From the IMG/VR virus record IMGVR_UViG_3300032304_000682, positions 1 through 45,306 of that record: a stretch of DNA of 45,306 nt; one strand, written 5' to 3'. Made by a program: the position numbers and the translations under genes. The first letter of the stretch is position 1, and each line of letters begins with the position of its first letter. The notes below the pieces were generated by a model. It did no database searches. It had not been told where the DNA came from and saw only the letters and a program-made list of their open reading frames with translations. Source of the stretch: a virus. Shown piece by piece: positions 2,326 through 38,708 of this stretch.

Positions 2326-2979
2326 ATGTTTTCGGAAGTAGATAATATTATCTTCCCAGATAGCTGTGAGGTGATTCAAGTTGCCTCACAGCAATTTGTC
2401 TATCCAATTTTTAAATGTGGTCGCTCCTCGTTAACCTGGAAAATGGAATCTAGAGGATGGACATTTGTGCCAGAACAAGATATTGTCAAAATTAACACGC
2501 CAATTAGAATATTTTTACGAGATCCTCGTGAGCGTTTTCTAAGTGGAATAAACACTTATCTACAACACTTGGCCGCAGAAGGCAACGATCTGGACCAACA
2601 TACTGTATTATTTTTTGTTAATAGATATTTGTTTTTGAATAGGCACTATGCTCCGCAGTTTTTTTGGCTGTTAAATCTAGCTCGTTTAACTCGCCCCAAC
2701 ATTTTAGTGACATTTAGTCCTATAACAGAAATTAGCCAACTAACACACGTTAATAGTCGTGCTAGAGTAGAACCATTAACTGATGAACTCAGACAAAAAA
2801 TTAATAGTTTTAATTGGACGTCAATAGAATTATATTACGCATTAGATCAAATTTTAATTGATCATATAGGCAAAACAGTTACAATACATGAGTTACTAAC
2901 TTATGTACAAGATAACCACTCTAATCTGTACGATTTAGTTTTTAAAAAATCTCTCAACATAACCAATGTACTGCCCTAG
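2326..2979 (+). CDS. Sulfotransferase-like protein
   Basis: Probably transfers sulfate from PAPS to a glycan or other acceptor. Residues 26-36 (YPIFKCGRSSL) resemble the 5'-phosphosulfate loop of carbohydrate sulfotransferases, where a basic residue is followed by a Gly/Ser-rich turn. Residues 65-74 (RDPRERFLSG) match the 3'-phosphate binding motif RDP-x-R-F-x-S. At 217 residues it is on the short side for the family. It starts 3 nt after gene 32 and overlaps the next radical SAM gene by 14 nt, so the two are probably translated together. The substrate is unknown. Confidence 0.6.
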   Translation: MFSEVDNIIFPDSCEVIQVASQQFVYPIFKCGRSSLTWKMESRGWTFVPEQDIVKINTPIRIFLRDPRERFLSGINTYLQHLAAEGNDLDQHTVLFFVNRYLFLNRHYAPQFFWLLNLARLTRPNILVTFSPITEISQLTHVNSRARVEPLTDELRQKINSFNWTSIELYYALDQILIDHIGKTVTIHELLTYVQDNHSNLYDLVFKKSLNITNVLP

Positions 2980-3850
2980 ACTAGATCATTTTGTTCGTTT
3001 TAATCCCAATGGCACAGTTAGCCGTTGTGGTCACATGACCAATGCTCCGCAATATGCTTCATTGGCAGATATGGAGTCTAGTTTGTGGTTGGCTAATACA
3101 AAGGAATTATTTAAATTTGACACATGGCCCAAAGAATGTGTGCGTTGTCAAGAAATTGAAGTGAAAAGTCCTAGCAGTGTAAGAATACATGCTATTGCAT
3201 TGGATGAATCTGAATCCGATTCCGAGTATCTTCAAGTAGGTGGAGTACTAGACAATGTATGTAATGCAGCTTGCCAAACTTGTAATCCTGATTGTAGTAC
3301 TCGCATTGGTGCACTAACCGGCAACAAATTTCCTGTAATCAATAATAGCACATCATATTGGAACTTGCCTCAGGAACGCATCAGGCACCTAGACATCAAC
3401 GGCGGCGAGCCAAGCTACAGCAAAAACTATAAAAAACTGTTGGCAAACTTACCACCAAATTTACGCACACTAAGACTCAATACTAATTGTAATATTGTAT
3501 TAGACGAGCTTACTGAAATAGCTCAACGTGGCATTGAGGTTACTGTTACAGTTAGTTGTGACGGAATTGGCCCGGTTCATGAGTTTATGCGTTGGCCCAT
3601 TCCTTGGGAAACTTTTTATCTTAACCTAATGCAATACAAAACCATGCCGGTAAAATTAAATTTATGGACCACAGTTAGTGTATTGAATGTAGATGATTTG
3701 GCTAATATACAAGCTTTTGCCCAGGAACATGGCATTGATCATGGTTATGCATATTTAAAAATGCCCGCGGAACTAAGCGTTGATAACACCGACCATGCTG
3801 CCAGAGATGCATACATACGCAAACAAAAACAGTTAAGAGGCATTGAATGA
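2966..3850 (+). CDS. Radical SAM protein with N-terminal twitch domain (copy 1, shortest)
   Basis: Radical SAM enzymes cleave S-adenosylmethionine with a [4Fe-4S] cluster to start radical chemistry. The cluster motif CX3CX2C is C99, C103, C106 (CNAACQTC); GGEP, typical of the SAM-binding strand, follows. Upstream lies a separate cysteine set (C3, C21, C58, C61) like the twitch/SPASM auxiliary cluster domain, but before the core instead of after it. This arrangement fits the family named twitch domain-containing radical SAM protein. At 294 residues it is 50-90 shorter than the other four copies and lacks their C-terminal FPEL-like ending. The ATG lies inside the upstream gene. The substrate is unknown. 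Confidence 0.8.
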   Translation: MYCPRLDHFVRFNPNGTVSRCGHMTNAPQYASLADMESSLWLANTKELFKFDTWPKECVRCQEIEVKSPSSVRIHAIALDESESDSEYLQVGGVLDNVCNAACQTCNPDCSTRIGALTGNKFPVINNSTSYWNLPQERIRHLDINGGEPSYSKNYKKLLANLPPNLRTLRLNTNCNIVLDELTEIAQRGIEVTVTVSCDGIGPVHEFMRWPIPWETFYLNLMQYKTMPVKLNLWTTVSVLNVDDLANIQAFAQEHGIDHGYAYLKMPAELSVDNTDHAARDAYIRKQKQLRGIE

Positions 3851-4392
3851 AAATAGCAATTACGGGACATACTGCAGGTATAGGTCAAGCACTGGCTAAA
3901 GAATATGTCCTTGATAAACATGAGGTTGTAGGACTTAGTCAACGCGAAGGCAATAACATTCGTAACATACCTAAAATTTGTAATCAGATTGAGTCGTGCG
4001 ATGTGTTTGTGAACAATGCACAAGCTGGATACGCACAGACTGAGTTGTTATTTGAAATGGCACAACGCTGGACTGGCACCAAAAAACACATTATAGTAAT
4101 CAGTACCATAATGACACAAGATCCTGTTAGTGTACTACCTGGATTGGATATGGTGGCCTATCATCAACAAAAAGTCACATTGGAAGAAATGGTCAAACAG
4201 CTACGCCATCAACGTCTTGGTATAACTATTACCATTGTTAGACCTGGATACATTGCCACACAACCTGGACAAACTGTACCACCTGCGGCAGATGTTAATA
4301 ACTGGGCTAGAACTTTATTAGATTTATTTGATATGGCCAAAAATAATAATTTAACAATACCAGATATATCACTAGGACCATTGTATAAATGA
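3847..4392 (+). CDS. Short-chain dehydrogenase/reductase (SDR)
   Basis: Predicted NAD(P)-dependent oxidoreductase with a Rossmann fold. The N-terminus carries TGHTAGIG, a form of the TGxxxGxG cofactor loop; NNAQAG matches the NNAG motif; a serine in VISTIM and YHQQK (YxxxK) supply the catalytic Ser, Tyr and Lys. At 181 residues it is shorter than the usual 250, missing part of the C-terminal substrate region. It overlaps both neighbouring radical SAM genes by 4 nt (ATGA), so the three form one translation-coupled unit and may act on the same substrate. Confidence 0.75.
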   Translation: MKIAITGHTAGIGQALAKEYVLDKHEVVGLSQREGNNIRNIPKICNQIESCDVFVNNAQAGYAQTELLFEMAQRWTGTKKHIIVISTIMTQDPVSVLPGLDMVAYHQQKVTLEEMVKQLRHQRLGITITIVRPGYIATQPGQTVPPAADVNNWARTLLDLFDMAKNNNLTIPDISLGPLYK

Positions 4393-5534
4393 ATCCTAAA
4401 GACGTACTGACAAATCGACATTTTTGTCCTATGCCATGGACAGGGCTCATGTACAATTCCGACGGCGCAGTTAAAAACTGCATTCGTAGTGATGATACAC
4501 TTGGCAATATCAAGGACGCACCGATTGAGGAAATACTGCTCGGAACCAAGAATGTAGGTAAACAAACCAACATTCTTAATAATCAGCCAGCTGTTGGATG
4601 TCACACTTGTTATGATCTTGAGCACAATAAAAAAGGATTTGACATTATCAGCGATAGAATTTTTTACATAAGAGAATTCAAACGAACACCGCTTGATACA
4701 TACCAAGTTGATAATTTTAATTTGCAAACAGTTGATGTTCGGTGGACTAATTTATGTAATTTTTCTTGTGTGTATTGCGGGCCTAGATTTAGTAGTAAAT
4801 GGGTTCAAGAACTTCAAGTGGTACAAGATACACCAACAGATCTACAACGTGCTGAGTTTAAAGAATATATTTTTAAACACGCACCCACTCTTAAACACGT
4901 TTACTTGGCAGGCGGCGAGCCGTTGCTAATGAAAGAAAATTTAGAGTTACTTAAAAAATTAAACCCCGATGTTAATCTTAGGATAAACACTAACCTTAGC
5001 AAGGTTGATACCGGAGTGTTTGATGCAGTATGCAAGTTTAAAAATGTTCACTGGACTGTGAGTGTAGAAACTGTAGAAAAAGAATTTGAATATATTCGAT
5101 TTGGCGGCAAATGGTCTGATTTTTTAGATAATTTAACGGTAATTAGAAAACTCGATCATAAGATAAGTTTTAATATGTTGTGGTTTTTATTAAACTATGA
5201 CACAATATTTGGTTGTGTAGATTACCTCAAAGGGTTAGGATTCCATAACAACAGCTTTATCATAGGAGCATTGCTAACTCCAGAACATCTAAACATTAGA
5301 CATTTGCCAGAAAATATGTTAAACTTACTAAAGACTAAATTGGAGTCTAAAATTAACGAGCACCCGGGATACTTGCTTGAAGACAGTTACCGAAATATGT
5401 TACACTATATAGAACAACCAATTGAAAAGAACTTAACAACGTCATTTGAGAAGTTAGCTGTAATGGATCAAAGACGTGGAGTAGACAGCAGTAAAATTTT
5501 TACAGAATTATATAAACTTAAAGAAGGAACTTAA
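4389..5534 (+). CDS. Radical SAM protein with N-terminal twitch domain (copy 2)
   Basis: The N-terminal 75 residues read like a SPASM/twitch domain: FCPMPW at 12-17, then C31, the LGNI turn, and C71/C74 as CHTC. The radical SAM cluster motif follows at C123, C127, C130 (CNFSCVYC), with GGEP further on. The domain order is therefore auxiliary-cluster domain first, core second, the reverse of classical SPASM enzymes. The 381-residue length matches copies 3 and 4. The block SVETVEKEFEYIRFGGKW is shared in pattern with the other copies (S-x-D/E-x-V/I...YIR...W). Substrate unknown; probably cytoplasmic. Confidence 0.85.
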   Translation: MNPKDVLTNRHFCPMPWTGLMYNSDGAVKNCIRSDDTLGNIKDAPIEEILLGTKNVGKQTNILNNQPAVGCHTCYDLEHNKKGFDIISDRIFYIREFKRTPLDTYQVDNFNLQTVDVRWTNLCNFSCVYCGPRFSSKWVQELQVVQDTPTDLQRAEFKEYIFKHAPTLKHVYLAGGEPLLMKENLELLKKLNPDVNLRINTNLSKVDTGVFDAVCKFKNVHWTVSVETVEKEFEYIRFGGKWSDFLDNLTVIRKLDHKISFNMLWFLLNYDTIFGCVDYLKGLGFHNNSFIIGALLTPEHLNIRHLPENMLNLLKTKLESKINEHPGYLLEDSYRNMLHYIEQPIEKNLTTSFEKLAVMDQRRGVDSSKIFTELYKLKEGT

Positions 5535-17558: not shown

Positions 17559-18680
17559 ATGACTTTTTGCTATTCTCCTTGGACTAATATTGATATTGAC
17601 CCACAAGGTAACATAACTCCTTGTTGTAAGTTTCAAAAACAATATTATGATCAAAAATTTAATATTCAAACGCATTCTACGGTTGAATATTCTAATAGCC
17701 AATTAGTCACAACTATCAAACAAGAATTTCAACAAGGAGCTTGGCCGCAAGGTTGCGAAAGATGTCGTATTGAAGAAGAAAATGGTATTGAAAGTAAACG
17801 ACAATTGGACTACACCCGGTGGAAACATCACTACGATGTGTACGACTTTAACAGTAACAAATTCATTACAACCAGCGTTGCATTTGGAAACACTTGTAAT
17901 CTTAAATGCATAACTTGTGGACCCTATGCGTCAAGCCGTTGGCAAAAAGAGTATCATGACTTGTACGGCAAAGATATTCCGCATTTTAAATTTTACAAAA
18001 AAAACTTTGTACAAGATTTTATATCACAGGCTCCGGATATTGTACACCTGGACGTTCCAGGAGGAGAACCATTTCTAAGCGGAGTGGCCGAGCAAAAGGT
18101 ACTGTTATCACATTACGTGAATGTAGGACAAGCAAAAAATATAACTTTACATTATACAACCAATGCACAGATATTTCCAGATGAAGAATGGTGGCAACTA
18201 TGGGCACACTTCAAAGAAGTTGATATCCAACTAAGTATTGATGGAGTAGGCCGCAGATACGAATATATACGACATCCAGCCAATTGGAATAAATTAATTG
18301 CCAACGTGATTGCATACCAACAGATACACGTATCAAACATTAAACTAAGTGTTAGTCATACTGTCAGTGCCTACAACGTTTATTATCTTGACGAATTCTT
18401 TGAATGGTGTTATAGTATGGGTTTACCACGTCCTTGGTTGGGTCGTGTCCATACACCACAATCAATGCGCCCGGGTGTATGGCCTAAACTTGCCAGAGAC
18501 ATGATAGTGAAGCAATTACAATCTAGTCTAGATCCAGATGTGTTATTGTGGGCAAATTTAATATCCACTGTGGATGAGTCAGAATTTTTTGATGAATTTA
18601 AATCCAAATTGCAGATGCATGATCAATATAGGAACACTGACTTTAATACCACTTTTCCAGAACTAGCCAAACACATATGA
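17559..18680 (+). CDS. Radical SAM protein with N-terminal twitch domain (copy 3)
   Basis: The N-terminal cysteine set is C4, C22, C23, C66 and C69 (CERC); the radical SAM motif is C113, C117, C120 (CNLKCITC), followed by GPYASSRW and a GGEP strand. SIDGVGRRYEYIRHPANW repeats the block seen in the other copies, and the end FPELAKHI carries the shared FPEL. Domain order is twitch first, core second. 373 residues. Its own early-type promoter predicts leaderless mRNA. It overlaps uvsW by 4 nt, so it shares a message with a core recombination gene. Confidence 0.85.
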   Translation: MTFCYSPWTNIDIDPQGNITPCCKFQKQYYDQKFNIQTHSTVEYSNSQLVTTIKQEFQQGAWPQGCERCRIEEENGIESKRQLDYTRWKHHYDVYDFNSNKFITTSVAFGNTCNLKCITCGPYASSRWQKEYHDLYGKDIPHFKFYKKNFVQDFISQAPDIVHLDVPGGEPFLSGVAEQKVLLSHYVNVGQAKNITLHYTTNAQIFPDEEWWQLWAHFKEVDIQLSIDGVGRRYEYIRHPANWNKLIANVIAYQQIHVSNIKLSVSHTVSAYNVYYLDEFFEWCYSMGLPRPWLGRVHTPQSMRPGVWPKLARDMIVKQLQSSLDPDVLLWANLISTVDESEFFDEFKSKLQMHDQYRNTDFNTTFPELAKHI

Positions 18681-24633: not shown

Positions 24634-25596
24634 ATGATTGATGTGGTTTCTTTTTTACCTGGCAAACGAAAACAAACAGCAAGTGGCTGGATCAGCTTTA
24701 ACGCACCTTGTTGCATTCATCGCGGGGATAGCCAAGACAAACGACAACGTGGTGGTATTAAACCCGGTGCAGACGGCTCGTGGTCATATCATTGTTTTAA
24801 CTGTGGCTATACTGCCAGTTTTGTATTAGGACGTAACTTAACATTTAAGGCTCGCAAACTGTTAGAATGGCTTAATATTCCTACAGAAGAAATAGAACGC
24901 ATCAATCTTGAAAGTTTAAAACACAAAAGTATAGAAGGCTTGTTGGGCAATCGCCAAGAAGTAATACAAAAATTACAATCAATTGAATTTGAAGATCGAG
25001 ATTTGCCGAGTGAAACACAAGAATTAAATGAGTTTGCTGAAAAATATTTGCGTAATAGATGTGCTCCGCTAGACTATCCATTCCTGTATAAAACAATGCC
25101 ACGACGTGGTGTTGTAATTCCGTTTACACACAACAATCAAGTGGTAGGGCATACCACACGTTTTTTAGATGATCGTACGCCCAGATACATTCAAGACATA
25201 CAACCAGGGTATGTGTTTGGCACAGACTTGCAAAAGTCCAACTGGCAAACTGCAATTGTAGTAGAAGGCGTGTTTGATGCACTGAGCATTAACGGCTTGG
25301 CTGTGCTACATGCAGAGATCAATGATGCACAGGTAAGATTGATCCGTAGTCTTGGACGTGACGTTGTAGTTGTACCAGACCAAGACTCTGCAGGGATGAA
25401 GTTGGTAGACCGTGCTGTAGAACTAGGCTGGGCAGTCAGCATGCCAGACTGGCCAGCAGATGTCAAGGATGTAAATGATGCAGTGATTCGTTGGGGCAAA
25501 CTTGGAACTTTGCTAACTATAATGCAGGCTAAAGAAACTAGTAAAATTAAAATAGAACTAAGGAAAAAACAACTTGTTAAAAGACTACGGACTTGA
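24634..25596 (+). CDS. 61: DNA primase (T4 gp61 family)
   Basis: Makes RNA primers for lagging-strand synthesis together with gp41. The N-terminal zinc-binding region has C26/C27, H29, C54 and C57 (CIH...CFNC). The Toprim core shows VVEGVFDALS (glutamate) and VVPDQDSAG (D-x-D), the metal-binding triad. Length 320 compares with 342 in T4. The 3' end overlaps gene 41 by 23 nt, placing primase and helicase in one message. Confidence 0.9.
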   Translation: MIDVVSFLPGKRKQTASGWISFNAPCCIHRGDSQDKRQRGGIKPGADGSWSYHCFNCGYTASFVLGRNLTFKARKLLEWLNIPTEEIERINLESLKHKSIEGLLGNRQEVIQKLQSIEFEDRDLPSETQELNEFAEKYLRNRCAPLDYPFLYKTMPRRGVVIPFTHNNQVVGHTTRFLDDRTPRYIQDIQPGYVFGTDLQKSNWQTAIVVEGVFDALSINGLAVLHAEINDAQVRLIRSLGRDVVVVPDQDSAGMKLVDRAVELGWAVSMPDWPADVKDVNDAVIRWGKLGTLLTIMQAKETSKIKIELRKKQLVKRLRT

Positions 25597-26977
25597 TGTC
25601 CAAAAACTATTCTTAGAAATGATGTTGCAAGACGCAGAAAGTTATGTTCGCGTTCAAAACATTTATAATCCAGAAAACTTTGATAGAAGTTTAAGACCTG
25701 CGGCCGAGTTTATTGCTGAGCACAGTAACCAACACAAAACACTTCCAGCACCAGAGCAGATTGCAGCCGCAACCGGAGTCAAATTAAATCATGTGCCCGA
25801 ACTCAACGAAGGCCACTTTGAATGGTTTATGAACGAGTTTGAGCAGTTTACTCGCAGGCAAGAACTAGAACGTGCTATTCTTAAGTCGGCTGACTTGTTA
25901 GAAAAAGGCGAGTATGATCCTGTAGAAAAACTGATCAAAGATGCGGTACAAATATCACTTACTAAAGATATGGGCACAGACTACTTTGCAGATCCTAATG
26001 CTCGTATCAACAAGTATTTTAATTCAGGCGGACAAGTATCAACAGGTTGGCCACAGATGGACAAGATCCTGTATGGTGGATTCAGTCGCGGCGAATTAAA
26101 TATTTTTGCTGGCGGATCAGGTTCGGGTAAATCGCTTGTTATGATGAACATAGCATTGAGCTGGTTACAAGCTGGCCTCAGTGGTGTGTACATCAGTTTA
26201 GAATTAAGTGAAGAACTGTGTGCGTTAAGAACAGATGCCATGTTGGCAGGTATGAGTACCAAAGAGATTCGCAAGGACATTGATCAAACTGAACTCAAAG
26301 TCAAGTTGGTGTCTAAGAAAGCTGGACAGTATCGTATCAAAGCATTACCAGCACAAAGTAACATCAATGATATACGAAGTTATATTAAAGAAGTGCAAGT
26401 ACAAACAGGCATCAAGGTAGATTTTATCATGTGTGACTACTTAGATTTGTTGATGCCAGTTAGTGCCAAAGTTAGTCCCAATGACCTATTTGTCAAGGAC
26501 AAGTATGTTTCAGAAGAACTGCGTAACTTGGCCAAAGAACTTAATGTGTTGTTTGTTACAGCGTCACAGTTGAATCGTAGTGCGGTAGAAGAAATTGAAT
26601 TTGACCATAGTCATATTAGTGGTGGTATTTCAAAGATCAATACAGCAGATAACGTGTTTGGTATCTTTACCAGTAGAGCCATGCGTGAGCGTGGCAAGTA
26701 TCAAATTCAGTGTATGAAGAGTCGTAGCAGTACAGGCGTAGGACAAAAAATTGATTTAGATTATAATATTGAAACCATGCGTATCACTGACCCAGGAGAA
26801 GAAGCTGGTCCAGTTAACTCGTTTGCTAAAGGTAACCTATTAGATAGTATCAAGGCCAAAAGCACAATGGTCAATAAAGAACCTATAGATGCTGACACTG
26901 GTGAAATCAGTAAAGTTACTGCGGATGTGCAAAGTGCCAAATTAAAACAATTACTTGGACAAATTAAACAAACATGA
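25574..26977 (+). CDS. 41: Replicative DNA helicase (T4 gp41 / DnaB family)
   Basis: Hexameric 5'-3' helicase of the replication fork. Walker A is GGSGSGKS (180-187); Walker B is in FIMCDYLDLL; the DnaB-like arginine and Q region TASQLNRSAVEE follows. The N-terminal 130 residues match the helical collar domain. The start is TTG, supported by AAGGA upstream, and lies inside the primase gene. Length 467 compares with 475 in T4. It overlaps the next radical SAM gene by 4 nt. Confidence 0.9.
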   Translation: MLKDYGLDVQKLFLEMMLQDAESYVRVQNIYNPENFDRSLRPAAEFIAEHSNQHKTLPAPEQIAAATGVKLNHVPELNEGHFEWFMNEFEQFTRRQELERAILKSADLLEKGEYDPVEKLIKDAVQISLTKDMGTDYFADPNARINKYFNSGGQVSTGWPQMDKILYGGFSRGELNIFAGGSGSGKSLVMMNIALSWLQAGLSGVYISLELSEELCALRTDAMLAGMSTKEIRKDIDQTELKVKLVSKKAGQYRIKALPAQSNINDIRSYIKEVQVQTGIKVDFIMCDYLDLLMPVSAKVSPNDLFVKDKYVSEELRNLAKELNVLFVTASQLNRSAVEEIEFDHSHISGGISKINTADNVFGIFTSRAMRERGKYQIQCMKSRSSTGVGQKIDLDYNIETMRITDPGEEAGPVNSFAKGNLLDSIKAKSTMVNKEPIDADTGEISKVTADVQSAKLKQLLGQIKQT

Positions 26978-28101
26978 CCAACCTTTATTGCTCAATGATT
27001 CATGGCGGATTGAATATTGATTTTAAGACACCCGATGTTGATAATCAAGCTGTAATAAGACATTGTTGTTTGCGTAACGATGTTTTTTCTGTAGAAGTTA
27101 ATGATAATTTTTGGCAGAATAAAAAATTAGAAACTCTTAGAGAAACTAATAAAAAAAACGTATGGGACACCGGCTGTTCAAATTGTGAAAGATTAGAATC
27201 ATCAAATGAGGTCAGTTTTAGAACTGGAATGAATGAAGGCCTAAATATTTTTGGACAATATGATGCAACAGGACCGTCACGCATTGATCTTATGTTTGAT
27301 ATTAGTTGTAATTTGGCCTGTAGAATTTGTGGAACTCATAGCAGTACCTATTGGCAACGACATCTTAAAGAACACGGATTATGGGATCAGCCTGTAACAA
27401 CACCACGAAAGAAACACAAAGTCATTGAATCTTTATCTAAACTTGATCTTTCTAATTTACGGCAATTGGTATTTTGTGGCGGCGAAACATTACTTGGTCA
27501 AGAATATTGGGACGTAGCGGAATGGTTAGGCAACAATGTTCCCAATGCCAAACAACAATTAACCTTGTGTTTTCAAACTAACGGAACCCAACCAATACTT
27601 CCTAAAAACTTTGACATTGTTGAAAAATTTCATTTAGTAAAGTTACATATAAGTTTAGATGGAGTGGGTGATAGATTTGAGTATCAACGGTGGCCAGCAA
27701 AATGGGATCAGGTGGAGGATAACATATTAAATTTACGAAAAACTTTACCTGGAAATGTAATGTTTGTTGTAGAAGAAACAGTCAACGTTTTTAATCTACT
27801 ATACTTGAGTGAACTTAAAACATGGATCAATTCAAATTTTACAACAAATAGAGGAGGTGACCTTGTTAATCACACAAAACACTTGGCCCATGGAGATTTT
27901 GGTCTACAGAACATGTCAGTAGAATATGTAAAATTAATTAAACAAACTGATCAGCACACACTGATACCAACAAATTGGAAAGAAAACTCTGTTGCAATAC
28001 AAGCTATGCTGGCAGAAATAAAGAAATTCGATGCCTTACGAAATGAATCTTTTGAAAAAACGTTTCCAGAATTACATAAACTGTATTCTAGATTCTGGTA
28101 G
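26974..28101 (+). CDS. Radical SAM protein with N-terminal twitch domain (copy 4)
   Basis: N-terminal cysteines C6, C31, C32, C68, C71 (CSNC) precede the radical SAM motif C112, C116, C119 (CNLACRIC). The SAM-binding strand is GGET instead of GGEP. SLDGVGDRFEYQRWPAKW and the end FPELHKLYSRFW are shared with the other copies. 375 residues. It is coupled to gene 41 by an ATGA overlap, so this cargo gene rides on the replisome message. It ends against copy 5 on the other strand with a 14-nt overlap. Confidence 0.85.
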   Translation: MTNLYCSMIHGGLNIDFKTPDVDNQAVIRHCCLRNDVFSVEVNDNFWQNKKLETLRETNKKNVWDTGCSNCERLESSNEVSFRTGMNEGLNIFGQYDATGPSRIDLMFDISCNLACRICGTHSSTYWQRHLKEHGLWDQPVTTPRKKHKVIESLSKLDLSNLRQLVFCGGETLLGQEYWDVAEWLGNNVPNAKQQLTLCFQTNGTQPILPKNFDIVEKFHLVKLHISLDGVGDRFEYQRWPAKWDQVEDNILNLRKTLPGNVMFVVEETVNVFNLLYLSELKTWINSNFTTNRGGDLVNHTKHLAHGDFGLQNMSVEYVKLIKQTDQHTLIPTNWKENSVAIQAMLAEIKKFDALRNESFEKTFPELHKLYSRFW

Positions 28102-29119
28102 CCGCCAGCTCTGGCAAATAGTCTTTAATGTTAGTACCTTTTAACTGATCTTGCCGATCAATTTCTTCCCAGAATTTTTCCAGTAGTCCTCCGCCATAGC
28201 TTAGAAATGCGCTGACTTCTTTATGGTATCTTTTATTATTTTCAAGCACTTGTTGTTTAAATTCTTTTGGTAAATTACCGGGTGCAAAGTACTCAGGATC
28301 TACAATTTGTTTACAAATATATTTGAGTTGATTAGATTCAAAGAAATCAACTAAGTCAGTATAATACATTATATTAAGATTACTAATCATACAACTTACG
28401 CTTATGTACTGTGTCATCTGTTTAAATTGGATAAGATTGTATTGTAGTTGATCCCATTTCAATGGCCACCTTATATAGTTAAATTGATCTCCAATGCCAT
28501 CTATGCTTAGACATATATTGAGATTTTTAAATTGTGATAATACAGTTAATTGTCGTTGACTTAATTCAATACTTCCGTTAGTTACTATCGAAACAAAGCA
28601 ATTGGTGTTTCCTAAACTAATAAGTTCTTCTAGTATGTCAAAATTTCTTTTTTCTAACAATGGCTCTCCGCCAACAAAACTTAATTGAACTATGTTTTTA
28701 AAGTTAATAGCAGAAGTGTCAGCAATTGTATATTTAATAGCACGATTTTCTAATTTTGCCCAAGCGGTGCTACTAGATGCGCCACAGGTTATACAAGTGG
28801 CATTGCATAAATTAGAAGTAGTAAGTTTAATTATTTTAGGAGTAAATCCGTTAGCAATAGCATCTTGCTCTGCTAACTCTAGATCACGGTCTGAATAGTA
28901 ATCAAACGTTTGATTGTGTATTTTTCGCTCGCTATCCAGTCCTTGATCTTCAAGTTTCCAACAGGTAACACAAGCAGGCGAGCGTTCTTTGTTTCTAATA
29001 GAACTTCGAACATCTTCTATATTAGTGCCAGCCTGCAAGCGGCAACAGTGTATATTTTTAGTAGATTGCAGAGATCCTTCATAAGAAAAAAAAGGTAAAA
29101 CACAAAAATAGTTGTTCAT
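28088..29119 (-). CDS. Radical SAM protein with N-terminal twitch domain (copy 5)
   Basis: N-terminal cysteines C6, C25, C26, C50, C53 (CVTC), then the radical SAM motif C105, C109, C112 (CNATCITC), a GGEP strand, SIDGIGDQFNYIRWPLKW and a LPELAATRI ending. 343 residues, the most compact full copy: the twitch region is shortened between the third and fourth cysteines. It starts 6 nt after a minus TTAAATA box with no ribosome binding site, so it is expected late, unlike copies 2-4. Confidence 0.85.
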   Translation of the reverse strand: MNNYFCVLPFFSYEGSLQSTKNIHCCRLQAGTNIEDVRSSIRNKERSPACVTCWKLEDQGLDSERKIHNQTFDYYSDRDLELAEQDAIANGFTPKIIKLTTSNLCNATCITCGASSSTAWAKLENRAIKYTIADTSAINFKNIVQLSFVGGEPLLEKRNFDILEELISLGNTNCFVSIVTNGSIELSQRQLTVLSQFKNLNICLSIDGIGDQFNYIRWPLKWDQLQYNLIQFKQMTQYISVSCMISNLNIMYYTDLVDFFESNQLKYICKQIVDPEYFAPGNLPKEFKQQVLENNKRYHKEVSAFLSYGGGLLEKFWEEIDRQDQLKGTNIKDYLPELAATRI

Positions 29120-29205: not shown

Positions 29206-29454
29206 ATGCAAAAAAAGACTAGAAGTTTATTGGAAGAATTAGACTCAATGTATGTTGAGCGTGATCAACGCCACGTTATTGAAAATCGTGCTGCCAACAT
29301 CATTGCCAGTGCCATACGCTTGCTGGAACAAATTGATTCTAGTTACAGTGTAGAAGATGCTCAGAATCTACAACGCAAATTACTCAATGCTATCAACCAG
29401 CGTGACCCAGGCAAATTTACCCGCACAGTGAGACGCACAGATGCAAATTCATGA
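29206..29454 (+). CDS. Small helical protein of the late block
   Basis: Not recognised. The 82 residues are mostly charged and helical (MQKKTRSLLEELDSMYVERDQ, then a long Ala/Leu/Arg helix with a coiled-coil look) and end in a basic segment. It starts the late block and overlaps the next gene by 14 nt, so it may be a small virion or assembly protein. Confidence 0.65.
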   Translation: MQKKTRSLLEELDSMYVERDQRHVIENRAANIIASAIRLLEQIDSSYSVEDAQNLQRKLLNAINQRDPGKFTRTVRRTDANS

Positions 29455-30553
29455 AATAACTCAACGGAAAAACGTTAACGAAGCGTTGGGCGGCTTAGGA
29501 TCATTTATGTCTGGCCTGACCGGAGGAATGTCTGACAAATACATGGACAAAACTCCTGGAGCAGGCAAAGAACAAAACACGTCCACTGATTGGAAAGAAA
29601 GATATCAAGCTATACAAAAAGATCCAACTGTAATGTCTTATGTCAAAGGTCTGGGCACAAGTTGGGCAAAAACTGCCGGCACTTTAATTAAACCCACACA
29701 AGGGTTGACTTCCGCTGCAACCTTGCAAAAAACAATTCCAACCTTGGTCAGTGCCGCTAAAAAAACCAATAACAATTTAACATCCACACAGATTGGCCAA
29801 ATTTTGGCCAAGTTAGCACCTACTGTTTGGAGCAACACCGCAGACAAGTCTGCTGCTATTGCACAATTAAAAAATGAACTGGAAAAACAAGGAGTCACAG
29901 TCGACGGAGCATCCGCCACAACTGCATCTACAAAATCAGCAACAAAATATTCTTATGGTAAACCAGGACAAATGAGTTCAACTGTTGCTGCAAGCAAGTC
30001 TGGACAGAACATGCAAAAAGTTTTTGGTCAACCTAAGGGCGGCATCCAGGGTATGCAGTCTGATTTACAGGAAGCAGCTATAGTAGGTCCAGCTGCGGAT
30101 CAATATCGAACAGCTTTTATACAATGGTCTAACGGACAGTTGGCCACTCGTGTGCGAGAGACCGGCGAAACTGTGACCATGGATGCTGTACAACAACAAT
30201 TTCCAGATTTGGCCACAGAACTTAAATCAGCATTAGATCAAATTGTTGCCTCTCGCGGCACTCCTCAACAAGCACAGGCTGTAGAATACTACGTTGAGTT
30301 GGCAGTGGCCGGGGTGCAGGCTGTGGCTCAAATATCAAAAAATAAAACATCAACAAACCGCCAACAAAATAAACAATTTGCCACCTCGGCTGGGGCCGTG
30401 AAACAGTCTTTGCGCGCCGCCGGTATTGATCCTGCTAAACTGGCTCAGTTTGGTGCCCAGGCCAAAGAAGCCGGTGACTCCATGCAGGCAAGAAGAACTG
30501 GGAATGATTCGCTCAACGCTTTGGCCAAACTAGCAGGATATACTTTGGTATGA
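29441..30553 (+). CDS. Putative structural protein, Ala/Gln/Ser-rich
   Basis: Not recognised. The 370 residues are rich in Ala, Ser, Thr, Gln and Lys. A short N-terminal peptide (MQIHEITQRKNVNEA) is followed by a Gly-rich stretch (LGGLGSFMSGLTGGM), and the rest is largely low-charge helix with Gln/Thr linkers (TTASTKSATKYSYGKPG). It lies between late genes and overlaps the next gene by 4 nt. A virion or scaffold role is inferred from context only. Confidence 0.6.
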   Translation: MQIHEITQRKNVNEALGGLGSFMSGLTGGMSDKYMDKTPGAGKEQNTSTDWKERYQAIQKDPTVMSYVKGLGTSWAKTAGTLIKPTQGLTSAATLQKTIPTLVSAAKKTNNNLTSTQIGQILAKLAPTVWSNTADKSAAIAQLKNELEKQGVTVDGASATTASTKSATKYSYGKPGQMSSTVAASKSGQNMQKVFGQPKGGIQGMQSDLQEAAIVGPAADQYRTAFIQWSNGQLATRVRETGETVTMDAVQQQFPDLATELKSALDQIVASRGTPQQAQAVEYYVELAVAGVQAVAQISKNKTSTNRQQNKQFATSAGAVKQSLRAAGIDPAKLAQFGAQAKEAGDSMQARRTGNDSLNALAKLAGYTLV

Positions 30554-32463
30554 ACTTACAGGAAGGCGGCAACGTATTCAAAGACGGCAACGGTCGTGCT
30601 CAAACACAACGCATTAATCAAACTGATGTTAAATCGACCTTGGCCTGGTTGGAAGAAATGTTACCAGGCCTTGATTTACAAAACAACACCCTTGGATCAA
30701 CCGGTATCCGAGACACGTCGGGTGATTTGGACATCGCTGTTGACGCCAAACAATTGACCAAAGAACAATTAATTGCACAATTAACCCGCTGGGCAACCAG
30801 TCAAAAACAAAAACCCGAGGACTGGATCAAACAAACCGGTGCTGGTGTACATTTTAAAACTCCCATCAATGGTCGCCCAGACCTAGGATTTGTGCAAACA
30901 GATTTTATGTTTCTTAAAAATGTTCCTTGGTCAAAGTTTGTGCTTGGTGCCATGCCTTTAGACAGCAAGTACAAAGGTCGTGAGCGCAATGTGCTAATGA
31001 ACTCAATTGCCAAAAGCATGGGATATAAATTAAACCAAGTTGGCGGCATTGCTGACCGTGCCACAGACAAAATTATTACCGACAGTCCCGATGCTGTAGC
31101 CAAGCTATTATTAAACCGTACAGCAACACGCCAAGATTTAGCCAGTGTAGAAACAATATTACAAGCCTTAAGCACGGATCCCAAACGTGACGCTAAACTG
31201 GCAGACTTTAAGCAACACATGGAACGCGAAGGCCTGCCATTCTTAGAAAGTGCAGAATTGTATCAACCAGTGAGCGATGTAAACTTCCTGGCTAGACTAC
31301 GTGATCGCATTATAAACCAAGGTATGCAGGTCATTGTTGAAGCAGAAGTGCAAGGTGGTCGTGCTAAAGGTATTGAACACCTGGAAGATCTTGTGTTTCG
31401 CAATGGCAGTGCCGGCATCAAAAAAGCTCTAGACATTGTAAAATATACCGCAGACAACACAGGCAAAACTACCACAGTCAAATGGGACGGAAAACCAGCG
31501 TTGGTATTTGGGCGCAATACTGAAGGGACATTTGTTCTTACTGATGTATCCGGATTTACAGCTCGCGGCTACAATGGTCTGTTTACAAGTCCACGCCAAG
31601 TAGCAAGACATTTAGAGCAACGTGACGCCGATGCCGAAGCACAAGGCCGACCGGCCACTCGTGTTGAAACACTGTTGCCTTTGTATGTGAATCTATGGCC
31701 CATGCTGGAAGCTGCTGTGCCCAAAGATTTTAAAGGATATGTACAAGGCGATTTACTATATACACAACAGCCGCCTGAGCAAGCTGGTAATTTTGTTTTC
31801 ACTCCTAATACAGTAGAATATAAGATTCCAGCGGCCAGTGAGGTAGGACAACGTATTGCCAATAGCGAAGTTGGTATTGCTATGCACACACGGTATGCGG
31901 AACCCGGTGCTACTAAAGAACCTATCGGCCGTGTTGATTTTAAACGGGTTCCTGGGCTATTGTTGTTAGAACCTGTGTATGCCAAAGAAAATATACAACC
32001 AAATCGTCAACTGGTACAGCAAGTTAAAGATGTGTATAACAGTCAAGGTGCCGCAATTGATCAGCTGTTTGATCCTGTAGATCTTCGTGCATTACAAATT
32101 ACTGATTTACCCAAATTATGTATAGATTATATCAACAGCAGAGTTGGTACTGGATTTGACAATTTGTTGGCGCAGTTTGGACCATGGCTTGAGCAACATG
32201 TTACTCCTAAAAAGTTCAACAACATTGTAGAATACATTCAAAGTCCACGTAGTAATTTAGATGGCATGGCCGCGGCATTTACAGCCTGGGTTTTGTTACA
32301 CGATATCAAAATGGATATTTTAAATCAATTGGATCTACAACATCCGGGTCAAGAGGGCTGGGTAATGGCCACAGGAGCCGGCATGGCCAAAGCAGTTAAT
32401 CGTCTAGCCGGTGGATTTACAGCGGCAAATCGTCAAATAAACAACCCAAAACAGTCCGCCTAA
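30550..32463 (+). CDS. Pol-beta-type nucleotidyltransferase joined to ligase-like domain
   Basis: Two enzyme-like domains in 637 residues. Domain 1 (about 25-165): GSTGIRDTSGDLDIAVD (49-65) matches the polymerase-beta superfamily G-S...D-x-D pattern (D59, D61), with a third acid at D118 in VQTDFMF. Domain 2 (about 270-520): TVKWDGKPALVFGR, with K311 as in the KxDG motif I of ATP/RNA ligases and capping enzymes; then YVQGDLLYT (398-405) and VEYKIP (422-427), placed like motifs III and IV. Similar ligase-like proteins exist in marine T4-like phages; the fused N-terminal domain seems unusual. Substrate unknown. Confidence 0.65.
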   Translation: MNLQEGGNVFKDGNGRAQTQRINQTDVKSTLAWLEEMLPGLDLQNNTLGSTGIRDTSGDLDIAVDAKQLTKEQLIAQLTRWATSQKQKPEDWIKQTGAGVHFKTPINGRPDLGFVQTDFMFLKNVPWSKFVLGAMPLDSKYKGRERNVLMNSIAKSMGYKLNQVGGIADRATDKIITDSPDAVAKLLLNRTATRQDLASVETILQALSTDPKRDAKLADFKQHMEREGLPFLESAELYQPVSDVNFLARLRDRIINQGMQVIVEAEVQGGRAKGIEHLEDLVFRNGSAGIKKALDIVKYTADNTGKTTTVKWDGKPALVFGRNTEGTFVLTDVSGFTARGYNGLFTSPRQVARHLEQRDADAEAQGRPATRVETLLPLYVNLWPMLEAAVPKDFKGYVQGDLLYTQQPPEQAGNFVFTPNTVEYKIPAASEVGQRIANSEVGIAMHTRYAEPGATKEPIGRVDFKRVPGLLLLEPVYAKENIQPNRQLVQQVKDVYNSQGAAIDQLFDPVDLRALQITDLPKLCIDYINSRVGTGFDNLLAQFGPWLEQHVTPKKFNNIVEYIQSPRSNLDGMAAAFTAWVLLHDIKMDILNQLDLQHPGQEGWVMATGAGMAKAVNRLAGGFTAANRQINNPKQSA

Positions 32464-33997: not shown

Positions 33998-34491
33998 AAC
34001 CAGACCAAGAATTTGAACGCTTGTTTAGCCAGGAATTTAAAAATATTACTCCTAATTTAATCTGGCAAAACGATTCGGGCGAATATGAAGCATTTGGACG
34101 ATATCGTATTGTTCCACACCGTCATGGATATCAAGTATTTTGCTCGGCCACAGAAGTAGGCACGTTCCACAGCACCAGAACCGCACTCAGTTGGTGTATA
34201 GCCGACAAAAACAATGCCTATAATACTGCACGTGAACTGTTAACAGTAGACAACAAATTAAACGCATTGACACAAGATATTAATGCTAGAGCCGCTATTG
34301 GGGACCGTAGCAAAAACCCAGCGTTACGTGAAACTATTTTGACCAAGCTAGAAAGCAAGATCATACACAAAAAACAGCTGGAAAATCAACTAACCAAATG
34401 TGTAGACTGGGCTAAATATATTCAACAACGAGGATTTGATAATGAAACTGCAAGAACTGGCCGTAGCCAACCCAACAAAACAAGCCGCTAA
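33994..34491 (+). CDS. Unknown late protein
   Basis: 165 residues. The N-terminal half has a beta-rich section (YEAFGRYRIVPHRHGYQVF); the second half is a long charged helix (LTQDINARAAIGDRSKN, then KLESKIIHKKQLENQLTKC). No family recognised. Its last 50 nt overlap the next gene's start, which uses a different frame. Confidence 0.6.
   Translation: MKPDQEFERLFSQEFKNITPNLIWQNDSGEYEAFGRYRIVPHRHGYQVFCSATEVGTFHSTRTALSWCIADKNNAYNTARELLTVDNKLNALTQDINARAAIGDRSKNPALRETILTKLESKIIHKKQLENQLTKCVDWAKYIQQRGFDNETARTGRSQPNKTSR
34412..34418 (+). promoter_or_regulatory. Possible internal late box CTAAATA
   Basis: Lies inside the preceding gene, 23 nt before the ATG at 34442, with AGGA in between. It could give the larger structural gene its own late transcript; chance is not excluded. 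Confidence 0.35.
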
Positions 34492-35290
34492 GGTTTTTGA
34501 AAGCTATTTTGGAACTAGTATCAAATTTGACACTATTTCTTGCCGCCAAGCACAGGATTTATTAACCCGTGTGCGCTCATTGATCAGTGAACACCGTCGC
34601 ACTCCAGCATTCCACCGTAGTGAACAAGATCCTGCTTATCTTAAATTGGTAATGCTAGAGCAGGCCTTGGCCACTCAAGCCGTTGTCGGTCAACCCGCGG
34701 CTAATCCTCAGCAACAACAAGCCCTAATGGCTGCACAACAACAACAAAAGAAACGTCAAATTCAAGACGCTATCAAGGCCAAACAAGCTGAAATTACTGA
34801 CTTGCAAAAGCAAATGAACAACCCTGTAATGAGCACAATGGAAAGTCGTCCAAGTTTGCGTCAGCGTTTGAAAGAAAGCGAAGTACAACAGGCTCAAGTT
34901 GTGTTAGCCAGTCAAGACATGGTTGACCAAGTGCAAAAAATGAGCGAACAGATCAGTGCCATGCAGTTCAAAGACTTGCCAGCCTTGGTTGACCAAATCA
35001 AAAACGAAGTCGGTGTAGATCAAGCCATGCAGTTTAACACAGATGCTACAGCCGCATTAGCTGGACTGTTACAAAACTTGCAAGGTGCTAAGACTCAGTT
35101 AGAGTCTGCATTAGGTGTAGTAACTGGACAGGCTCCGCAAATTCCAGGCGAAGAGCTTGCACCACCTGTGCCAGGTGAAGAAGAAGTTGCGGTTGATGCT
35201 GAAATTCCAACACCAGGCGGTGAAGAAGACATCGATGCTGAAATGGACGCCAACATTGAACCAGCCGGGTTAGGACGTGAACGTAGATAA
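34442..35290 (+). CDS. Putative structural or scaffold protein
   Basis: 282 residues if the ATG at 34442 is used (AGGA 7 nt upstream); an upstream TTG would add two. The N-terminal part is a compact helical domain (SCRQAQDLLTRVRSLISEHRRTPAFH), the middle is a Gln-rich coiled coil (QQQQALMAAQQQQKKRQ), and the tail is strongly acidic and Pro-rich. This mix of coiled coil and acidic tail resembles phage scaffold or core proteins; the role is inferred. Confidence 0.6.
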   Translation: MKLQELAVANPTKQAAKVFESYFGTSIKFDTISCRQAQDLLTRVRSLISEHRRTPAFHRSEQDPAYLKLVMLEQALATQAVVGQPAANPQQQQALMAAQQQQKKRQIQDAIKAKQAEITDLQKQMNNPVMSTMESRPSLRQRLKESEVQQAQVVLASQDMVDQVQKMSEQISAMQFKDLPALVDQIKNEVGVDQAMQFNTDATAALAGLLQNLQGAKTQLESALGVVTGQAPQIPGEELAPPVPGEEEVAVDAEIPTPGGEEDIDAEMDANIEPAGLGRERR

Positions 35291-35625
35291 TGTTAATCCG
35301 CGAAGTTGCAGATCCTAACACACAACGACTGGCTGCATTGAGCCAGTTTTTGCTTGGCCGTAGCCAAGATGAAACAGCCAAAAAACAAATCAGTCAAACA
35401 GCATTTATTGATCTGGCCAAAAGTTTAGGTGTAAATGTTACCCAAGACAACCTAGGCGACTTGATCAGTCAAGAGCCATTGAGTAATCTATTAGAACCAC
35501 TAGAACCAAATTCAGGTGTAGTTCGATTCAAAGGCGACACAGAGGCCGCAACCGGAATGAGTGTGGATCAAGCTAGGGCAGTGGTGGACTCGAATGCCAA
35601 AGCGGCAATGAAACGCCGCTCTTAA
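35290..35625 (+). CDS. Unknown late protein
   Basis: 111 residues, starting with ATG overlapping the previous stop by 1 nt. The middle part is helical with a small Gly/Asn-rich region (AKSLGVNVTQDNLGDLI); the end is basic (AAMKRRS). It has the look of a small assembly protein paired with its acidic upstream neighbour; no family recognised. Confidence 0.6.
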   Translation: MLIREVADPNTQRLAALSQFLLGRSQDETAKKQISQTAFIDLAKSLGVNVTQDNLGDLISQEPLSNLLEPLEPNSGVVRFKGDTEAATGMSVDQARAVVDSNAKAAMKRRS

Positions 35626-35680: not shown

Positions 35681-36064
35681 ATGGCCTATTCAGAAAAAGT
35701 AATTGATCATTATGAAAATCCCCGCAACGTGGGCAAATTAGAAATAGACGAAACCACAGGAACCGGAGTGGTAGGAGCTCCTGCATGCGGGGATGTAATG
35801 AGACTACAAATCAAAGTTCAAGACGGAATAATTACAGATGCAAAATTCAAAACATACGGGTGCGGGTCGGCGATTGCAAGTAGTTCGCTCGTCACGGAGT
35901 GGGTCAAGGGTAAAACGCTGGACGAGGCTGGATCAATTAAGAATGCTGAAATTGCAGAGGAACTCGCACTCCCGCCGGTTAAGATTCATTGTTCAATCCT
36001 TGCGGAAGACGCTATTAAGGCGGCAGTAGCAGATTACAAGAGCAAACATGATACAAGTAACTGA
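35681..36064 (+). CDS. iscU: Fe-S cluster assembly scaffold IscU
   Basis: IscU holds nascent [2Fe-2S]/[4Fe-4S] clusters for transfer to target enzymes. The three ligand cysteines C36, C61 and C104 and the aspartate D38 are all present, and LPPVK (97-101), the chaperone HscA recognition motif, is intact. Length 127 matches bacterial IscU (128). The C-terminal half of the gene looks more GC-rich than its neighbours, hinting at recent acquisition from a host. It overlaps iscA by 17 nt. Confidence 0.92.
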   Translation: MAYSEKVIDHYENPRNVGKLEIDETTGTGVVGAPACGDVMRLQIKVQDGIITDAKFKTYGCGSAIASSSLVTEWVKGKTLDEAGSIKNAEIAEELALPPVKIHCSILAEDAIKAAVADYKSKHDTSN

Positions 36065-36365
36065 AGCCGCCGCCAACAAAATTAAATTTAATTTAGACAA
36101 GCGTGGTGGAATAGGTATCCGTATAGGTGTAAGAACTACAGGATGCTCAGGACTTGCTTATGTGTTAGAATATGTAGATGCACTACAACCCGGTGATGTT
36201 GCCATGGCTGACAATCACACCAATGTTATTGTAGACAAAAAAAGTTTACCTATCGTAGACGGTATCACGGTAGACTATGTACGCCAAGGTCTTAATGAAG
36301 GCTTTGAATTTATCAACCCAAACGAAAAAGATCGCTGTGGTTGCGGCGAATCATTTAGGATTTAA
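36048..36365 (+). CDS. iscA: IscA/SufA/ErpA-type Fe-S carrier protein
   Basis: A-type carriers pass Fe-S clusters to apo-enzymes. Cysteines C33 (in TTGCSG), C97 and C99 (CGCGESF) are the three conserved ligands. Length 105 fits IscA (107). Its start lies inside iscU, so the two are coupled. The exact subtype (IscA, ErpA or SufA) cannot be settled by eye. Confidence 0.88.
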   Translation: MIQVTEAAANKIKFNLDKRGGIGIRIGVRTTGCSGLAYVLEYVDALQPGDVAMADNHTNVIVDKKSLPIVDGITVDYVRQGLNEGFEFINPNEKDRCGCGESFRI

Positions 36366-37115: not shown

Positions 37116-38708
37116 TTGGCCATTGTACAAATATCCCAGATCACTAACCGTAAAGGGTTAAATGAAAATTTACCACAATTAGCTGGTGCTGAATTAGGCT
37201 GGTCAACAGACACACGTCAGTTGTACATTGGTAATGGTACCCTTGAAGATGGTGCCCCGGTTATTGGTAACACTGAAATCTTAACAGAATTTAGTGACAT
37301 TTTAAACTTCACTAATACTTACACCTACAAAGGTGAAGCCGCTGGATATACAGTACAAACAGGCGCCACTGCTGGCGATCCAATAACTTTAAGTTTGCAA
37401 TCATGGTTGGATCAGTTTGCCAGCGTGTTGGACTTTGGTGCAACAGGTGATGGTGTTACAGATGATACTGCGGCCATTAATCGCGCCCTATATCAACTCT
37501 ATTGCAGAGAAGTAAATCCACAAATACGCCGCAGTTTGTTTTTTCCAGCAGGTGTATATCGTGTGACCAGTGCCATTAATATTCCTCCTTTTGCTACATT
37601 GGTAGGTGAGGGCAATGACAATTCCTTAATTGTTATGGATGACGGTGTAGTTGATTATGTGGCCCGTACTGCCGACAGTCTACAAAATACGGGTGTAAAC
37701 ATTGGCGATGCTGGAGCAATAACACCTCAATATATTACCATTACCAACATGGGATTTACACACTCTGATCCAGAGCAAAATGTGTTCCTAGTACAAGATG
37801 CTACTAACTGTCGTTTTCAAAATGTAGGATTCCGTGGCACATCGACTACAGCTAATTTAATATCCGATGCTAATGGAAGTATTGGTGTAAGTTTTGCCAG
37901 CACCAGTGCTCTTGTTTGCGAACAAATTACCTTTGATGGTTGCGTGTTCTCCGGCCTAGTATGGGGGATCAATACTAATCAACAAACAAAAGCAGTTACA
38001 GTTAGTACCAGTCAATTTGATACTTTATACCGAGGCATTGTTTTAGGAACCGCAGCAGTGACCAATGGCGGCCCAACTGGCACACGAATTGTAGGCAACA
38101 TGTTTGACAACATCTATGCCGAAGGTATTATATTTGGCAGTAATCTTGTGTTGGCAATCAATGCTAGCGGCCATAACATTTTTTATGACGTAGGCAATCA
38201 CTTTACAGGCAGCACAGGCACTCCAGCTACTAGTATTATTAGCATACAAAGCAACAACAACGTCAGTATCAGCGATCTGTTTGAGCGCACTGATACATTT
38301 GCTACAACCTATCCTAGAATTGATCTTAATAATACACTAAGCATAGCTACTACCAACGGTGGTCAGTTGGCCATGGGCACATACACACGCGAAAGTGGAG
38401 AGTTGGTCACATTAACTGACAACGACACAGGTACTGTGTTTGAGCTCAATGCCACAACAGTTCGAGCATTCAGTATAAACTATACCATTGTGCGAAATTT
38501 TTCATACCGAACCGGCACTATCATGGTAGCTACTGACCTTGGAGATTCTAGTATAGGAATCACTACCAGCGATGACTATGTGGAAAACAACAACACTGGT
38601 ATTACTTTGACAGTTGATCAAGCAGGAGACATAGTTAGTCTAATTTACACTGCTACCAACGCTGGCACTAATGCCACAATGACCTACAGTATTACACACC
38701 TAGCTTGA
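37116..38708 (+). CDS. Tail spike/fibre protein with pectate-lyase-type beta helix
   Basis: The N-terminal 60 residues (ISQITNRKGL, then LAGAELGWSTDTRQLYIGNGT) match a repeat common at the start of marine phage tail proteins. Residues from about 104 (VLDFGATGDGVTDDTAAIN) are the entry motif of right-handed parallel beta-helix proteins (pectate lyase 3 family), which bind or cleave host polysaccharide. Length 530. The TTG start is set by the strong ribosome binding site. Probably reads the host surface; the enzymatic activity is unproven. Confidence 0.8.
   Translation: MAIVQISQITNRKGLNENLPQLAGAELGWSTDTRQLYIGNGTLEDGAPVIGNTEILTEFSDILNFTNTYTYKGEAAGYTVQTGATAGDPITLSLQSWLDQFASVLDFGATGDGVTDDTAAINRALYQLYCREVNPQIRRSLFFPAGVYRVTSAINIPPFATLVGEGNDNSLIVMDDGVVDYVARTADSLQNTGVNIGDAGAITPQYITITNMGFTHSDPEQNVFLVQDATNCRFQNVGFRGTSTTANLISDANGSIGVSFASTSALVCEQITFDGCVFSGLVWGINTNQQTKAVTVSTSQFDTLYRGIVLGTAAVTNGGPTGTRIVGNMFDNIYAEGIIFGSNLVLAINASGHNIFYDVGNHFTGSTGTPATSIISIQSNNNVSISDLFERTDTFATTYPRIDLNNTLSIATTNGGQLAMGTYTRESGELVTLTDNDTGTVFELNATTVRAFSINYTIVRNFSYRTGTIMVATDLGDSSIGITTSDDYVENNNTGITLTVDQAGDIVSLIYTATNAGTNATMTYSITHLA

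Follow-up and report, generated by a model that had tools for sequence, protein, structure and literature searches.

What does a virus do with a single protein that seems able both to add nucleotides and to join nucleic acid ends? The question is raised by a gene of a giant T4-like phage in IMG/VR virus record IMGVR_UViG_3300032304_000682, of which positions 1 to 45,306 make up the whole stretch analysed here (the window). An earlier reading of the sequence, hereafter the original prediction, had described one 637-residue protein in which a polymerase-beta-type transferase is joined to a ligase-like domain. The observation of this fusion is confirmed and its interpretation is partly supported: the protein is a variant, not seen before, of the known repair theme of a Pol-beta transferase plus a ligase. 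As to its role, we give about an even chance to its being an end-repair enzyme of the fill-and-seal kind that is probably carried in the phage head and injected, with RNA slightly favoured as the substrate.

Two predicted enzymes in one chain

The open reading frame (ORF) is open and intact, and the ATG with which it begins shares bases with the stop codon of the preceding gene (Table 1). Homologues of the protein were found at about 160 loci on viral contigs, well beyond chance expectation; most are full length with 51-96% identity, and several lie on contigs of 250-350 kb. Cellular homologues were not confirmed in any of 84,980 genomes, and none was found on plasmids. All of the residues named in the original prediction are in place (G49-S50, D59-x-D61, D118, K311-W-D-G, G400-D-L-L-Y and Y424-K-I). 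In an alignment of 78 full-length proteins with identity as low as 51%, G49, T51, G52, S57, G58, D59, D61, Q116 and D118 are invariant, as are K311, W312, D313, G314 and G400-D401-L402-L403. The AlphaFold model of the whole fusion, based on 103 sequences, has a mean predicted local distance difference test (pLDDT) score of 90 and contains two domains. Both halves resemble known nucleotidyl-transfer enzymes, so the assignment, for which structure prediction had been proposed as a check, holds at the level of the fold. The toxin or antidefence role that had also been raised was not borne out, since the protein matched no defence-system model in PADLOC and showed no similarity to toxins. NCBIfam gave nothing meaningful for it.

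The predicted structure supports the N-terminal half as a nucleotidyltransferase (NTase) of the Pol-beta superfamily. Its Foldseek matches in the PDB are the family X DNA polymerases lambda, beta and mu, terminal transferase and African swine fever virus PolX, the best with an E value of 0.005 and a probability of 1.00. The superfamily motif hG[GS]..[DE]x[DE] and a predicted palm fold are present together with a third carboxylate, which was placed by sequence alone, and the G, G and G-D-x-D positions of the NTase motif are invariant also in the split relatives described below. The three carboxylates are shared with polymerases lambda, beta, mu and AsfvPolX, to which identity is only about 12-17%, and a Pfam search at E <= 10 returned DUF6267 only. 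Since there is no PolX sequence-family match, we describe this half as predicted to work like a family X DNA polymerase and not as a member of that family. Membership in RlaP (PF10127) was considered and rejected, with no Pfam match and a negative hhalign comparison against three RlaP sequences.

The C-terminal half belongs to DUF6267 (PF19782, phrog_455), scoring 104.9 bits against a cut-off of 27. Pfam gives the function of this domain as unknown. It occurs with that label in more than 450 phage genomes, and we found no literature on it. Its predicted structure supports placing it among the ligase-superfamily enzymes. The first 28 PDB fold matches are all polynucleotide ligases, headed by a fungal tRNA ligase and including archaeal and human DNA ligases, an archaeal RNA ligase and T4 ligase. 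Motifs I, IIIa, IV and V of the covalent nucleotidyltransferase (ligase/capping) superfamily can be assigned on an adenylyltransferase fold, with invariance judged in 103 sequences made up of fusions and stand-alone cyanophage DUF6267 proteins. Viral models in BFVD that match the whole fusion are DUF6267 proteins, the 277-residue transferase and the "RNA ligase" of Atu_ph07, and a 446-residue PA5oct protein whose length is that of EST35_0228. For the ligase half, the BFVD matches include viral RNA ligases.

One motif of the original prediction has to be replaced. YKI (424-426) had been taken as a ligase motif, but K425 gives way to R, S or N in relatives and to C in cyanophages, and because this residue is not conserved we reject YKI as motif V. 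The likely motifs IV (E602-G-W-V605) and V (K614-A-V-N-R618) had been overlooked. The domain thus shares the fold, motif I and candidate motifs IIIa, IV and V with ATP-dependent polynucleotide ligases (Trl1, archaeal RNA ligase, DNA ligases). Unlike them, it has Asp at the IIIa-like position where ligases usually carry Glu, a mainly helical insertion of about 120 residues between candidate motifs III and IV, and no OB domain. The last point follows from the end of the chain, which stops 19 residues past motif V, with those residues helical or of low confidence in the models; an OB domain with motif VI, the criterion for a DNA ligase, is absent from the fusion protein. Known DNA ligases have an OB domain, and its absence is a trait of RNA ligases. 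The window protein gave no match to the RNA ligase (Rnl1/Rnl2) families PF09511 and PF09414.

Several results weigh against the ligase assignment. Each fold match of this half is weak (E 0.02 to 0.5, probability 0.1 to 0.7, template modelling score about 0.2), an hhalign comparison of DUF6267 with phage DNA ligases found nothing, and profile searches of the ligase half and of the transferase half against PDB sequences were likewise empty. Because sequence profiles do not detect a relation to DNA ligases, the assignment draws on predicted structure and motifs, and the argument from the fold lies in a match list that is consistent throughout, not in the strength of any single match.

The pairing recurs elsewhere in another form. 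In Atu_ph07 (gp065/gp066), Phosso and PA5oct, the transferase and a ligase-like protein are encoded by separate, nearby genes. In Atu_ph07 and Phosso the order is primase, DnaB-like helicase, a homologue of the 82-residue gene of Table 1, two genes, the latter encoding a protein with KLDG, and finally the transferase; the KLDG protein of Atu_ph07, gp066, has a weak match to RNA_ligase PF09414 (E 0.002, below cut-off). In PA5oct, the 82-residue homologue, EST35_0228, which carries KIDG, and EST35_0231, the transferase, all lie inside 5.5 kb. Since the transferase and a ligase-like partner are near neighbours in several phages, they form a recurring pair that is here a single chain. The same concept, in which a Pol-beta-type transferase and a ligase cooperate where ends are broken, lies behind RlaP, an RNA-ligase-associated Pol-beta NTase that acts with Rnl RNA ligases and is known from jumbo phages (PMC7824862). 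In Atu_ph07, XaC1 and Vibrio phage 2.275.O, RlaP has a gene of its own, whereas the window protein has both predicted activities in one chain.

Table 1. Positions in the window of the fusion gene, its domains and motifs, and selected neighbouring genes
Feature	Position	Strand	Basis
Fusion coding sequence, 637 residues, PolX-like NTase + ligase-superfamily domain (DUF6267)	30550..32463	+	ORF; Pfam PF19782 E 7.9e-30; homologues
Codons of residues 1-5, leader M-N-L-Q-E; prohead protease predicted to cut L-x-E / G-G behind E5	30550..30564	+	homologue conservation
NTase domain, residues 6-235, family-X-polymerase-like fold	30565..31254	+	AlphaFold; Foldseek PDB matches pol lambda/beta/mu, probability 0.96-1.00
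NTase motif G49-S-T-G..S-G-D59-L-D61	30694..30732	+	G49, T51, G52, S57, G58, D59, D61 invariant; S50 at least 90%
Third carboxylate motif V115-Q-T-D118-F	30892..30906	+	Q, D invariant; 53 sequences, split relatives among them
Low-confidence linker between domains, residues 236-271	31255..31362	+	AlphaFold pLDDT 42-55 over most of block
Ligase-superfamily domain (DUF6267), residues 272-637	31363..32460	+	domain-alone AlphaFold pLDDT 93, predicted template modelling score 0.88; PDB fold matches
Motif I K311-W-D-G, predicted covalent-AMP lysine	31480..31491	+	invariant, 103 sequences, fusions + cyanophages
Motif IIIa-like G400-D-L-L	31747..31758	+	invariant, fusions + cyanophages
H446, strand expected to bear motif III	31885..31887	+	invariant; motif label is our assignment
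Helical insertion separating candidate motifs III and IV, about residues 480-600	31987..32349	+	DSSP of models
Candidate motif IV E602-G-W-V605	32353..32364	+	E, G, V invariant, fusions + cyanophages
Candidate motif V K614-A-V616-N-R618	32389..32403	+	K, V, R invariant, fusions + cyanophages
Toprim primase + DnaB-like helicase (gp61/gp41-like), upstream	24634..26977	+	Pfam
82-residue gene, two genes upstream of fusion	29206..29454	+	phrog_11854 "virion structural protein" E 2.6e-16
Upstream gene, 370 residues, start MQIHEIT..VNEALGG, overlaps fusion start	29441..30553	+	ORF
282-residue gene, conserved MKLx[E/D] start, downstream	34442..35290	+	phrog_14154 "virion structural protein" E 8.1e-14
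111-residue gene, conserved M[KRL][ILV]xE[VFL] start	35290..35625	+	N-terminus comparison

RNA or DNA as the substrate

The combination of a Pol-beta-superfamily and a ligase-superfamily half is consistent with the end repair that the original prediction had proposed. In the mechanism that we favour, the family-X-like NTase would replace nucleotides lost from a damaged 3' end, and the DUF6267 domain, adenylated on K311, would join the refilled end to a 5' phosphate. We place RNA, such as tRNA cut by host nucleases, slightly ahead of DNA as the probable substrate. This preference draws on the lack of an OB domain, the tRNA ligase at the head of the fold matches, the RNA_ligase-like partner in Atu_ph07 and the parallel with RlaP and its RNA ligase. 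Six of six large (jumbo) relatives carry a separate gene for an ATP-dependent DNA ligase, which makes a replicative DNA ligase role unlikely in jumbo phages; the PF09414 matches in these relatives fall on that same gene. As a further hint of RNA, neither RlaP nor a separate Rnl1 was matched in the six (G001-G006), the Rnl1 search having had no positive control. No tRNA genes turned up in the window, nor in 100 kb from one relative.

Other points count against RNA. The nearest folds of the transferase half are DNA polymerases and the gene lies beside replication genes, both of which favour DNA. The family-X half may instead fill short gaps and the ligase half seal nicks in phage DNA, either in replication or on the incoming genome, by analogy with the pairing of PolX with a ligase in African swine fever virus. 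We consider such DNA gap repair possible while leaning against it. It would agree with the DNA polymerases at the top of the N-terminal matches, with the DNA ligases among the top matches of the other half, and with a position next to primase, helicase and exonuclease genes. It is harder to reconcile with the missing OB domain and with the canonical ATP-dependent DNA ligase already present in the six large relatives and in cyanophage S-CRM01.

The cyanophages bear on the same question. Most isolate members of PF19782/phrog_455 are cyanophage proteins that consist of this domain by itself, with neither the N-terminal transferase nor the leader. Their genes lie near gp41 (between gp41 and gp61), and in many cases the next gene is an NMNAT-like cytidylyltransferase. 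T4-type cyanophages have been reported to have no recognised g30 DNA ligase (PMC2984593), and no PF01068 DNA ligase was found in seven of the eight cyanophages searched (P-HM1, S-WAM1, S-PM2, S-CREM2, S-SM2, P-RSM1 and Syn33). DUF6267 is present in all seven, and freshwater S-CRM01 carries both DUF6267 and PF01068. The location of DUF6267 between gp41 and gp61 in phages reported to be without this ligase speaks for the DNA alternative.

In S-PM2, DUF6267 and an NMNAT-like cytidylyltransferase domain form one 591-residue protein (S-PM2d138, L282:2495-4270). Here too DUF6267 is fused to a nucleotidyl-transferring domain, but one that is NMNAT-type and C-terminal, not PolX-like and N-terminal.

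The N-terminal leader and probable packaging in the head

The first five residues suggest where the fusion protein may go. In T4, the prohead protease gp21 cleaves proteins behind L/I-x-E, and Alt, a protein injected by the phage, sheds six residues at ITE (PMC9026906, PMC5694885). Across 114 distinct N-termini of fusion proteins, P1, directly ahead of Gly-Gly, is occupied by Glu in 113 and by Met in one (L070), P3 is L (75), I (32) or V (7), P2 takes eleven different residues, and Gly-Gly-Asn follows the predicted cut position without exception. Residues 1-6 are predicted to be disordered (pLDDT < 50). This arrangement of [L/I/V]-x-E followed by Gly-Gly, newly recognised here, fits the T4 prohead-protease motif. 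With Alt and the other T4 internal proteins, to which it is otherwise unrelated, the fusion protein shares a few leading residues that close with [L/I]-x-E.

An S77 prohead protease and gp23 are encoded by five of eight large relatives, while a gp21-type protease is absent from the window fragment itself. Together, the leader and the protease of the relatives agree with the features of a T4-type capsid-targeted internal protein. The gp23 of the relatives starts MSQELLEGRW..ALLEGL, with LLEG twice at the N-terminus. Within 100 kb of a relative, [LI]xE with a small or hydrophobic residue behind it was observed 11 times at positions 4-10 against 3.1 expected, and a conserved pattern like the leader also occurs at the starts of the window genes at 34442 and 35290. 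The PA5oct transferase is annotated as structural by electrospray-ionisation tandem mass spectrometry (ESI-MS/MS), the sole virion record for any homologue. The Atu_ph07 cluster of CDS 31-76 includes 29 virion proteins according to the paper on that phage. By analogy with T4, the conserved leader suggests packaging of the fusion protein in the head. We take head packaging to be probable because the leader is predicted to be cleaved by the prohead protease: MNLQE would be removed to expose Gly-Gly, and the protein would be packed, injected with the genome and active from the first minutes of infection.

Some observations point away from packaging. N-terminal LxE is not clearly enriched within the window itself. 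The P1 Glu codon is nearly always GAA, and therefore synonymous evidence of selection at this site is thin. Since the PA5oct transferase is recorded in virions and has no LxE leader, leader and packaging are not linked by the data. The DUF6267 protein of S-CREM2 (gp87), a form without the leader, is not in the published virion proteome (PMC10665884).

The protein may be an ordinary replication or repair enzyme that is not packaged, with the conserved E-G-G-N-V-F simply part of the fold; we regard this as a substantial possibility, though short of an even one. The Gly-Gly-N-V-F stretch needs no protease explanation, since it is conserved well past the leader and the transferases of the split relatives begin directly M-G-G or M-S-G, and replication genes are close by. 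Against it stand the conserved Glu and the L, I or V three residues before the Gly, which sit in predicted disorder and are absent from the M-[G/S]-G relatives, and the record of the PA5oct transferase in virions. The degrees of confidence that we attach to the several explanations overlap, since what the enzyme acts on and whether it is packaged are independent matters.

A leader like those of injected T4 proteins would also suit a protein that acts on the host. The NTase or the KxDG domain might transfer AMP to host proteins or small molecules after injection, as an early factor in host take-over with timing like that of T4 Alt, and the NMNAT-like cytidylyltransferase that is fused (S-PM2d138) or adjacent to cyanophage DUF6267 has been detected in virions of S-SM1 (PMC3037559) and S-CREM2 (PMC10665884). 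We consider this improbable given the full candidate set of ligase motifs, the ligase folds as nearest matches and the lack of similarity to known AMPylators in family searches.

End repair by a packaged enzyme remains our preferred reading. If the leader is cut as predicted, a complete end-repair enzyme would be delivered with the genome, ahead of any phage gene expression, and could counter host nucleases or mend the entering DNA. A domain that has had no assigned function in hundreds of marine phage genomes gains a concrete and easily testable enzymatic prediction, one that bears on the stated gap of a recognised g30 DNA ligase in T4-type cyanophages (PMC2984593). A broader proposal is that DUF6267 makes up a new branch of the polynucleotide ligase superfamily that has no OB domain. 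In T4-like jumbo phages, the present one included, it would be fused to a PolX-like domain and shipped in the capsid as a ready-made enzyme for filling and sealing, and in marine cyanophages it would supply the ligase activity that they supposedly lack; this we put forward tentatively, as rather unlikely in its entirety.

Other genes with comparable starts were seen. Two small genes in relative G001, L262:6896-7276 and L262:8548-8949, start MRAREFIAEG and MRAKEFIRED, and such MRA[RK]EFI[AR]E starts resemble the capsid-targeting leader of T4 internal proteins. The protein at 64-1179 of the window starts MKESNIFEACDERLLEGTW and has two LxE-type motifs near its start and a glycine-zipper stretch, making it a candidate head-packaged protein. 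In Atu_ph07, a run of like-sized genes from gp063 onward (L084:10588-18423) has the starts MRLFQLLE, MRWHQLIE, MKWHQLTE and MRWDQLTE. Three of the four genes read share PLYRG, and Pfam searches of two members gave nothing convincing; as a lead, the run is possibly ADP-ribosyltransferase-like with leaders of the capsid-targeting type.

Genes around the fusion

The original prediction had placed the gene in a late block among structural genes, which is right in part. The 82-residue gene and the gene at 34442-35290 match PHROG virion families, but replication genes surround the fusion. Homologues of the 82-residue gene occur in Atu_ph07 (gp068, "virion structural protein"), Phosso and PA5oct, and the PA5oct homologue of the 34442 gene (L087:8111-9307) is recorded as structural by ESI-MS/MS. 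The T4-like replication set identified in the window by Pfam consists of a gp32-like single-stranded DNA-binding protein, a RecA/UvsX-like protein, a UvsW-like helicase, Toprim primase, DnaB-like helicase and ribonucleotide reductase.

Further afield in the window, at least five genes show cysteine-rich radical-SAM-like motifs by eye, an unusually large number (2966-3850, 4389-5534, 17559-18680, 26974-28101 and 28088-29119 (-)). A NifU/IscU-like scaffold gene (NifU_N E 5.7e-53) followed by an IscA-like gene, the latter recognised by eye, occupies 35681-36365, and 37116-38708 encodes a tail-fibre-like protein with Mtd_N and pectate-lyase-like domains.

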